A DNA stretch of 64,000 bases from contig NZ_JAMXIB010000003.1 in assembly GCF_024006985.1 (NCBI RefSeq), positions 1-64,000 of the forward strand, read 5' to 3'. The stretch's first letter is position 1, and every line of letters begins with the position of its first letter. Source of the DNA: Robiginitalea marina (lineage in GTDB: Bacteria; Bacteroidota; Bacteroidia; Flavobacteriales; Flavobacteriaceae). Positions 17,299-29,588 of this stretch are shown piece by piece. The notes below the pieces were generated by a model. That model did not search any database, was not told where the DNA came from, and saw nothing but the letters and a program-made list of their open reading frames with translations. Position numbers and translations under genes: made by a program.

Positions 17299-17588
17299 AA
17301 TGCATATTTCATTTAGGGGAGAAACGCCTGGGCTCGAAACAGGAAGGGTAACTTACTTCTATCCGGCACTTTGACAAGTTATCAACTTTTTGGTGTACGG
17401 ATTGTGTGGCCTTTAATGTTTATTTCCTCGTCTAAAGTTGTAAATTTATAGCGTATCAGGAACGCTAAATAGCGTACCAACCGGGCACAAAAGCCACGGT
17501 GGTTTAGAATGCGGACATTCGTCAAAAAAAATGAATCACAGTCCAATTATCATTCATGTCTGGTGCATTAACCTAAAATCAATGCACA
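17299..17588. other. Gene-free stretch
   Basis: 290 bp with no plausible gene. It includes two nearby AGCGTA-type motifs (TATAGCGTATC and AAATAGCGTACC around 17450-17480). No clear promoter assigned. Confidence 0.35.
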
Positions 17589-27395: not shown

Positions 27396-27857
27396 ATGAG
27401 AAACAAAAGACAACTTCTAATTGAACAATTAGACCAGAAATTGATGAAATTTCAAGAATCAGCATTGGTTTTGGTACCAACGAAGGGATGGATAAACACC
27501 ATTAGGACCACATTAAATATGACTCGGGACCAATTGGGCACCAAACTTGGAATGTCTAAAGGAGCAATACAAAAGATTGAAGAAAGAGAAGCTAAAGGCC
27601 AAATAACAATTAATAAATTAAAAGATGTGGGCCAGGCCTTAAATATGAAATTTGTATATGGATTTGTTCCAAATGATGGATCTATTGAAAATTTAATTCG
27701 CCTGGAATCGGAAAAATTAGCCCGGAAAATAGTGTTAAGGACCAATCAAAATATGAAGCTGGAGGACCAGGGAATTGGGGATGAAAAGTTAAATGACACT
27801 ATTAACGACCTCGCAAATGAAATTAAAAGAGAAGTACGAAAATCTTTATGGGATTAG
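27396..27857 (+). CDS. Mobile mystery protein A (HTH antitoxin-like)
   Basis: A 153-residue protein with an Xre-type helix-turn-helix (MTRDQLGTKLGMSKGAIQKI) near residues 45-65, matching the family called mobile mystery protein A, known to occur with a Fic-domain protein B in mobile elements. The end (LANEIKREVRKSLWD) is helical. It overlaps the downstream gene by 10 bp. Upstream lies a phased array of four palindromes, so it probably represses its own promoter. AT-rich. Confidence 0.88.
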   Translation: MRNKRQLLIEQLDQKLMKFQESALVLVPTKGWINTIRTTLNMTRDQLGTKLGMSKGAIQKIEEREAKGQITINKLKDVGQALNMKFVYGFVPNDGSIENLIRLESEKLARKIVLRTNQNMKLEDQGIGDEKLNDTINDLANEIKREVRKSLWD

Positions 27858-28444
27858 AATTAAAATATGAAGAAGGACAAACCCCTTTAGATGAAAATGA
27901 AAAGGAAGGTCTGAAAATTAAGTCGATTACAACTCAGGGAGAACTGGATGAATTCGAACAGTTAAACATTGAAAAAGCTGTGGAATGGACTATTCGAACC
28001 AATTTAAAAGCTGAGAAAATATTGACTGAAAAGTTTGTAAAAGACCTCCACAAACGAATGTATGGTGAAGTATGGAAATGGGCAGGTGAATTCAGAAGGT
28101 CAGAAAAAAACATTGGAATACCCTGGACACGAATTGGCATGGAATTGAGAAACTTGCTGGCCGACACCAAATATTGGATTGAAAATAATACGTATTCGCC
28201 AGAGGAAATTGCTATAAGATTCAAACATAGACTAGTATCTATTCATTGTTTTCCAAATGGCAACGGAAGGCACTCAAGACTGATGGCTGACATTATCATA
28301 GAATCAATATTCGGGAAAGAAATATTTTCCTGGCATCAATCAAATATGGCCAAAGCAGACGAAACAAGAAAAGAGTATATTAAATCGCTAAGGGAAGCTG
28401 ATAATGGAAATATTAAACCGTTAATAGAATTCGCAAAAAACTAA
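27848..28444 (+). CDS. Mobile mystery protein B (Fic/DOC domain)
   Basis: A 198-residue protein with a complete Fic motif HCFPNGNGRHSR at residues 133-144 (HxFxxGNGRxxR); the histidine, acidic-position asparagine and arginines needed for nucleotide transfer are in place. It overlaps protein A by 10 bp, the signature pair of this family. Fic enzymes typically transfer AMP to a protein; whether this one is a toxin is not shown by sequence. No obvious inhibitory S/TxxxE/DG helix identified. Confidence 0.9.
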   Translation: MGLELKYEEGQTPLDENEKEGLKIKSITTQGELDEFEQLNIEKAVEWTIRTNLKAEKILTEKFVKDLHKRMYGEVWKWAGEFRRSEKNIGIPWTRIGMELRNLLADTKYWIENNTYSPEEIAIRFKHRLVSIHCFPNGNGRHSRLMADIIIESIFGKEIFSWHQSNMAKADETRKEYIKSLREADNGNIKPLIEFAKN

Positions 28445-29055: not shown

Positions 29056-29388
29056 GGATAGAAAACCTCGCACCTAGAATCCACCTGGGTTGGTACGCCC
29101 TGCGGCGTACCGACCAGAGAAGCCCCGCTCCTGCAAACAGGTCCCGAACCGAAGGGAGGGATAGAAAATCTTGCACTTAGAATCCACCTGGGTTGCTTTC
29201 TCCTACGTCGAAAGCGACCAGTTCGTCCCGCTACTGCAAACACGTCCCGAACCGTAGGGAGGGATAGAAAACCTTGCACCTAGAATCCACCTGGGTTTGC
29301 AGGAATTCCACTTCAATGAAGTTTTATCCTTCTTTCCTGCCTGGGTTCATTCACTGCGTGAATGGACCAGTTCGTCCCGCTACTGCAA
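29056..29388. repeat. Three-copy 103-nt tandem repeat with variable hairpins
   Basis: Conserved blocks GGATAGAAAA, GCACCTAGAATCCACCTGGGTT, GACCAG and CCCGCTACTGCAAA repeat, with unit starts at 29056, 29159 and 29262 (exactly 103 nt apart). Between CTGGG and CCAG each copy has a different stem: GGTACGCC/GGCGTACC, GCTTTC/GAAAGC, then two (GCAGGAA/TTCCTGC and CATTCAC/GTGAATG). Stems change on both sides, so structure rather than sequence is kept. A truncated fourth start (ATAGAAAACC) follows. Confidence 0.8.
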
Positions 29389-29398
29389 ATAGAAAACC

Positions 29399-29427
29399 AC
29401 GCTTCGCTACCGCGAAGCGTTTTTTTT
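29399..29427 (+). terminator. Rho-independent terminator
   Basis: Stem ACGCTTCGC, loop TACC, stem GCGAAGCGT followed by eight T residues. Directed to the + strand. Confidence 0.75.
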
Positions 29428-29474
29428 CATTCCCGTCCGAAACCTCAAGCAAGCTTGGGTTTCTTCCTGGAATG

Positions 29475-29504
29475 AAAAAACCCACGCCTTCCGGCGTGGG
29501 TTTT
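29475..29504 (-). terminator. Terminator of the CAT-anticodon tRNA
   Basis: Stem CCCACGCC/GGCGTGGG with loop TTCC; six T residues follow on the minus strand, where the tRNA is read. T residues also follow on the plus strand, so it may work both ways. Confidence 0.8.
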
Positions 29505-29514
29505 CTGCTTGATG

Positions 29515-29588
29515 TGGTCCCACCTGGGCTCGAACCAGGGACCCTCTGATTATGAGTCAGATGCTCTAACCGACTGAGCTATAGGACC
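29515..29588 (-). tRNA. tRNA with CAT anticodon (elongator Met or Ile2)
   Basis: The minus-strand sequence folds as a standard 74-nt tRNA: acceptor GGTCCTA paired with TGGGACC, D-arm GCTCAGTCGGTTAGAGC, anticodon stem TCTGA/TCAGA around loop CTCATAA (anticodon CAT), T-loop TTCGAGC, discriminator A; CCA is not encoded. C4-G69 and C5-G68 pairs resemble Ile2 isoacceptors that need lysidine; elongator Met is the alternative. A terminator follows at 29475-29504. Confidence 0.92.

Follow-up and report, generated by a model that had tools for sequence, protein, structure and literature searches.

Many Bacteroidota carry an apparently undescribed small non-coding DNA element 3′ of tRNA and tmRNA genes, possibly a new type of mobile cassette

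Genes for tRNAs are classic landing sites for islands and phages. Tandem repeats are also found 3′ of a tRNA gene in Escherichia coli, where part of the tRNA 3′ end is present in each of the tyrT/rtT repeats (RF00391); these repeats occupy one locus in one lineage, and we know of no cloverleaf family among them. In integrons, the core of the attC site spans 7 bp. Integron attC sites and their cassette arrays keep their structure while their sequence is free, fold in a strand-specific manner, end in a variable terminal hairpin, and are stacked as units at a fixed dock (PMC2727003). Integrative elements that target tRNA genes, such as Ms6, carry a block identical to the tRNA from the T-loop to the 3′ end and leave the tRNA intact (PMC1762012). 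REP sequences and BIMEs, which are associated with RAYT transposases, are short extragenic palindromic repeats of 20–40 bp that occur in arrays and are dispersed (PMC3733652).

The small non-coding DNA element described here, apparently hitherto undescribed, is found in many Bacteroidota, directly 3′ of genes for tRNAs and tmRNA. It shares with integron arrays the conserved structure with free sequence, the variable terminal hairpin and the stacking of units at a fixed dock, and its fold appears to be strand-specific as well. However, the dock is a tRNA or tmRNA gene, the units carry no genes, a 17-nt tRNA-derived block takes the place of the 7-bp core, a four-arm cloverleaf is added, and ten carriers contained no IntI over the cut-off. 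The identity block and the intact tRNA recall Ms6-type elements, but the unit is about 200 nt long, has neither an integrase nor any other gene, has a conserved fold, and occupies many tRNA species per genome. Like rtT, the units stand in tandem 3′ of a tRNA gene and include part of its 3′ end, whereas the cloverleaf family has no Rfam match. It is short, palindromic and arrayed, as REP/BIME sequences are, but it is far longer than these, is bound to tRNA ends, and has no associated Y1 transposase. One of its hairpins (hp1) is an intrinsic terminator with GNRA loops and a T-run, yet it is only one arm of a four-arm structure, which is then followed by a mimic matched to the tRNA. Because every known family that was seriously considered failed a defining feature, the family is considered categorically new, although proof of the integration model presented below would equally justify calling it a variant of site-specific integration. 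In searches on tRNA-adjacent palindromic repeats in Bacteroidetes and on rtT, which covered open-licence papers only and are weak evidence, the family was not described, nor was any small, gene-free, structure-conserved, tRNA-bound element across a phylum.

The window, a 64,000-nt stretch of the Robiginitalea marina genome, contains a tRNA-Met (CAU) gene on the minus strand at 29514–29588 (ARAGORN; Rfam RF00005, 71.6 bits) with an array at its 3′ end. Abutting the gene, at 29384–29513 on the minus strand, is an intact unit of about 130 nt that folds on this strand into a cloverleaf: helix A around hp1, a long B/hp2 arm, and hp3, together with a CAAG/ATTTG extension. It scores 127 bits with our covariance model and is one of the 14 sequences used to build that model. 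All of its arms are read on the minus strand. The hp1 arm (29477–29504; AAAACCCACGCC-GGAA-GGCGTGGGTTTT), an inverted repeat with 100% complementarity, is the intrinsic-terminator hairpin of the tRNA. The B helix and hp2 (29422–29480) form an inverted repeat with the apex CAAGC-TT-GCTTG, in which helices 4–6 covary, and hp3 (29399–29420), which belongs to a further inverted repeat, is preceded by an A-run and is therefore terminator-like on the plus strand.

In a full unit, the cloverleaf next to the tRNA is followed by ATTTGCAG, about 12 nt, and a T-arm mimic, in which the T-stem of the neighboring tRNA forms the base and the T-loop is swapped for a variable hairpin. The 3′ side of the mimic runs on, in intact units, into a full copy of tRNA nucleotides ~58–74. 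The same cloverleaf arrangement, with quite different sequences, is found 3′ of each of about 14 tRNA genes in the genome of the window. At several loci the duplicated tRNA 3′ end is followed by an ordinary terminator, and in L051, L058, L060 and L075 the terminator after the second block is unlike the unit's own, as expected for the original site.

The repeats at 29056–29383, with which this analysis began, are decayed tandem derivatives of the far half of this larger cloverleaf unit. Their natural reading direction is the minus strand, that of tRNA-Met, and they lie 3′ of the gene. The original prediction was of three 103-nt tandem repeats at 29056–29427. Direct-repeat analysis recovers their starts at 29056, 29159 and 29262, with two gaps of 103 nt, and two of the units are 93% identical over a 71-nt part. 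The first two copies occupy 29056–29158 and 29159–29261; direct repeats and flank comparison show the third (29262–29383), which reaches up to the cloverleaf, to be longer and chimeric. The predicted interval contains repeats, but it excludes most of the true object, the intact cloverleaf that extends up to the tRNA. Across the copies, 36 nt of flank (GGATAGAAAA..CACCTGGGTT) are almost invariant while the stems vary, and all four predicted self-complementary stems are present. In the reading direction, the first T-arm mimic (29341–29370) has the tip CATTCAC/GTGAATG, the loop of which reads C[GCA]G on the minus strand. Next comes a remnant unit (29287–29340) with the block AACCCAGGTGG and the stem GCAGGAA/TTCCTGC but without its own T-stem 5′ side. 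The second mimic (29188–29221) has the tip GCTTTC/GAAAGC, and the third (29085–29117) has the tip GGTACGCC/GGCGTACC. What is left of the duplicated tRNA 3′ block lies at 29184–29194 and again at 29081–29091, in both places as AACCCAGGTGG, which each window repeat still carries. On each strand the array folds better than expected by chance (z = −4.7 and −4.2, with no shuffle equaling the native sequence). A resemblance to the T-arm of the tRNA had been suspected from the sequence. Reverse-complementing the T-arm's 3′ half plus the acceptor strand does yield the block CCACCTGGG.

The tip types of the Met locus recur, little changed, at the same tRNA in other Robiginitalea species. Copy 2, of the GCTTTC type, is one base from its counterparts in G002 and G003; relatives of copy 1, of the GGTACGCC type, are present in G005 and G008. 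Such recurrence fits the proposal of a hairpin-swapping mobile module, as does the finding that successive units of the same array can be unrelated in sequence while they have the tRNA block in common. Just past the array, at 27396–28444, is a gene pair matching mobile mystery proteins A and B (TIGR02612 and TIGR02613; HTH plus Fic domain), a name that reflects a tie to mobile regions.

Matches to the covariance model come from 60 of 149 Flavobacteriaceae genera; the genome of the window alone has 21. In a sample of 296 genomes of the class 74 have the element, and two genomes outside the class have it too. Further copies with other stems are widespread, and the matches exclude the opposite case, in which there would be no more copies and the stems would be random palindromes. 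Of 114 matches studied in context, 108 lie at tRNA/tmRNA 3′ ends: 79 directly adjoin an intact tRNA, and a 3′-end fragment of a tRNA or tmRNA borders 29 of the other 35, against 4 of 105 random stretches. The family and its location at tRNA/tmRNA 3′ ends are solid. At the locus syntenic to tRNA-Met, dozens of genomes from other genera have a plain tRNA plus terminator, which makes the presence of the element patchy.

The cloverleaf shape is kept while the sequence is free. A plain sequence alignment of 14 members shows covariation in 23 of 32 pairs. When 83 family sequences are aligned to the model, 93.9% of cells are paired and double changes occur in all 32 pairs; a model-fitted alignment favors structure, but the covariation score of 0.747 far exceeds those of shuffled (0.189) and slid partners (0.07–0.12) all the same. 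The compensatory variation that was predicted from a few stems is very strong family-wide, with 756 double-change cells compared with 203 expected. The four-arm architecture is fixed and the end motifs are near-invariant across the phylum.

It could be argued that such variation requires no mobility. Arrays would grow by local events only (unequal recombination, replication slippage, and template switching at hairpins beside tRNA genes), and covariation would arise from palindrome-correcting mutation. The unit is near-palindromic, as this proposal would have it, and neighbors in L168 and L178 are plain tandem duplicates at 93–95% identity, which also counts against insertion as the only source of new units. 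In L266 (G241), at tRNA-Ser(CGA), tandem units have an inverted hp1 loop, GAAG versus TTCG, a sign of hairpin-templated change. However, four fixed arms and near-invariant end motifs across a phylum are hard to obtain from mutation alone. In L062, L075, L202 and L210, moreover, neighboring cloverleafs are 56–60% identical, against a background of 60 ± 5%, and the tRNA blocks ahead of them are identical over 16–17 nt. Neighbors at background identity that share an identical tRNA block look like independent insertions. Local growth is also difficult to reconcile with L070, in which an exact direct copy of the tRNA end and hp1 occurs together with an inverted arm of unrelated sequence, and we regard it as quite unlikely to be the whole explanation. 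A single template-switch origin was rejected as a misfit with the same locus.

Taken together, the units also match the tRNAs next to which they lie. The 17-nt tRNA 3′ block has 11.12 matches to its own downstream region compared with 9.56 ± 0.12 for other tRNAs (n = 75), and the T-stem 5′ strand has 3.61 compared with 3.13 ± 0.07, so that the T-arm likeness is specific to the adjoining tRNA. At about 16 loci the duplicated tRNA 3′ end flanking the unit agrees at 14–17 of 17 nt. One further candidate was dropped. A spacer that copies the acceptor 5′ strand and complements the acceptor strand, giving a full acceptor/T-arm minihelix, seemed persuasive by eye but does not discriminate between own and other tRNAs (3.96 versus 3.88 ± 0.08 matches and 4.53 versus 4.60 pairs).

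For the cloverleaf unit, no clean pair of empty and occupied sites was found, which weighs against integration; the genus of G065 is represented by one genome. Such a pair exists for a different palindromic element at tRNA-Asn, where L251 (G005) is occupied and L252 (G002) is empty. The flank lies directly after the tRNA in G002, and in G005 it follows a second copy of GGTTCGAGCCCAAGAGGGGGAGCC, the tRNA 3′ end being duplicated with palindromic elements between the copies. A second palindromic element of about 65 nt (CTGGCnCCTCGCTn..GGTCCACCGGACC..nCGCTCGGYCC) recurs beside tRNA 3′ ends (L246, L006, L007, L010, L022, L023, L213, L249, L251 and L253), in another genus too, and is frequently fused to the T-arm mimic or straight to the duplicated tRNA 3′ end. 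Between tRNA-Asn and its terminator, L033 and L265 (G000) and L250 (G001) have GAAGCnGAGC..GCTCGCTTC plus a long hairpin, which by eye is unrelated to the cloverleaf.

Islands with a tyrosine integrase use the same tRNA end in the genome of the window. Some of the tRNA 3′ fragments beside matches in this genome are ends displaced by such islands, which lie between the tRNA and the displaced end with its cloverleaf, at a distance of 7.3 kb for tRNA-Asp and 17 kb for tRNA-Pro. Tyrosine-recombinase ORFs immediately follow tRNA-Pro(TGG) (L288, 262–1617) and tRNA-Asp (L289, 1547–2833). The shared insertion point and the cloverleafs at displaced ends could mean that larger islands or ICEs left the units behind, as ends that survived the loss of the middle. 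In the islands examined in this genome, however, no cloverleaf stands beside the integrase end; it lies outside, on the displaced side, and an origin as island debris is very unlikely.

The unit, at about 200 nt, has no room for an integrase gene. All ten carriers tested have tyrosine recombinases, which makes these enzymes possible, but their presence does not discriminate, and no recombinase could be tied to the element family in these ten genomes, a point against the integrative reading. The integron integrase (TIGR02249) scored above the curated cut-off in 0 of 10 element-rich genomes. A known repeat machine, either an IS200/605-type Y1 transposase as in REP/RAYT systems or a reverse transcriptase, would suit an element that is short, palindromic, multi-copy and strand-specific and that ends at the tRNA 3′ processing site. 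Y1_Tnp (PF01797) is, however, absent from the genome of the window despite its 21 element matches, and across the family Y1 transposase and element co-occur 23 times against 23.4 expected. The reverse transcriptase domain RVT_1 (PF00078) is likewise missing here, and 9 of 11 further element-rich genomes lack it too (2 of 12 carriers have one). Movement by a known repeat machine is therefore largely refuted and is scarcely credible. No phage or plasmid relatives were found by blastn.

A second characteristic that bears on the nature of the element is the strand on which it folds. Internal single mismatches were counted on the tRNA-sense strand after folding with G.U forbidden. G.T mismatches outnumber A.C by 55 to 8, A.G outnumber C.T by 17 to 4, and G.G outnumber C.C by 13 to 1, although P values are optimistic since the matches are mutually related and most were picked with a model permitting G.U. 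Folding the opposite strand instead returns almost the same counts. By arm, the G.T:A.C ratio is 34:2 in B/hp2 and 10:0 in hp1, where the bias is strong; it weakens to 7:2 in hp3 and vanishes in helix A (4:4). In loci picked by tRNA adjacency the bias persists (8:1 and 18:1). The pattern suggests that the tRNA-sense strand acts as a folded single strand, and a symmetric duplex cruciform is disfavored as the functional form by the 55:8 ratio.

This strand could be RNA or DNA. The main rival to our reading holds that the tRNA transcript reads through hp1, and that cloverleaf and mimic form a structured 3′ trailer, either influencing the processing of the tRNA or mimicking it, with selection on the RNA keeping the structure. 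The G.T and purine–purine excess on the tRNA-sense strand fits a folded RNA, the unit begins at the tRNA 3′ end, hp1, which has to function as RNA, has RNA-type GNRA tetraloops in 39 of 112 cases, and a G.U pair in helix 1 is conserved in 58 of 82 sequences. However, hp1 and its T-run constitute an intrinsic terminator ahead of the remainder of the unit, and the patchy presence of the element, with plain tRNA-terminator loci in many genera, is at odds with a needed function. No Rfam family matches: at the array nothing exceeds the gathering score, with weak leader and terminator matches only, and rtT (RF00391) has no match over the array up to E = 10. In the whole window, Rfam reports only tRNAs and a SAM-I/IV riboswitch (17448–17540, 60.7 bits). 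In their loop types, hp3 and the mimic tips favor GNA triloops over GNRA. These triloops occur in 39 of 116 hp3 arms and 29 of 110 mimic tips, compared with 6 of 112 hp1 arms and 0 of 63 ordinary terminators. GNA and GNNA loops are classic, very stable loops of DNA minihairpins (PMC4686876). Because GNA loops occur in RNA too, they favor single-stranded DNA in hp3 and the tips but stop short of proof. The plain structured-RNA array offered in the original prediction is consequently not the best reading, given these DNA-hairpin-type loops and the position of the unit past an intrinsic terminator, and we judge it unlikely that the element is the RNA trailer of a read-through tRNA transcript, though this is a serious competitor.

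We give about even weight to the proposal that these are small (~200 nt) integrative elements, non-coding and specific to tRNA 3′ ends, that function as folded single strands with a logic like that of attC. The window repeats would then be the worn end of an element array whose dock is the 3′ end of tRNA-Met. Every element would comprise a cloverleaf and a hairpin with a copy of the T-stem at its base, the 3′ side of which would continue as tRNA nucleotides ~58–74. Insertion at the tRNA would leave the gene an intact 3′ end and push older units outward. The active form would be the folded, single tRNA-sense strand, most likely a single-stranded DNA recombination site read by its shape, and a tyrosine recombinase, from the cell or from a resident island, could act on it in trans. 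The variable stems would be the tips, in which pairing rather than sequence may count. Insertion as an event, single-stranded DNA over RNA, and the role of a recombinase are what we infer from these patterns; the G.T bias is also expected of RNA, and the unbiased helix A fits the integrative reading poorly. A wider proposal, possible but more tentative, is a phylum-wide cassette system with tRNA and tmRNA genes as docking sites and with gene-free cassettes read as folded tRNA-sense single-stranded DNA, each bearing a T-arm mimic for its tRNA. It would follow an integron-like logic without the integron integrase.

Many tRNA genes lie a few hundred bases from contig ends in G000 (contigs C1, C3, C10, C11, C13, C22 and C46), as if arrays break short-read assembly. 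The integrative reading, if true, would help to explain the many tRNA genes at contig ends in this assembly. If the RNA reading were true instead, the elements would constitute a large undescribed RNA family. On either reading the family is missing from Rfam and can now be searched by covariance model. The findings are suggestive of a small mobile cassette of a new type that docks at tRNA genes. If this is true, the family would be a second, unrelated instance of recombination sites recognised by fold rather than by sequence, and a testable single-stranded DNA recombination system outside integrons; the order of insertion would be recorded naturally at tRNA genes.
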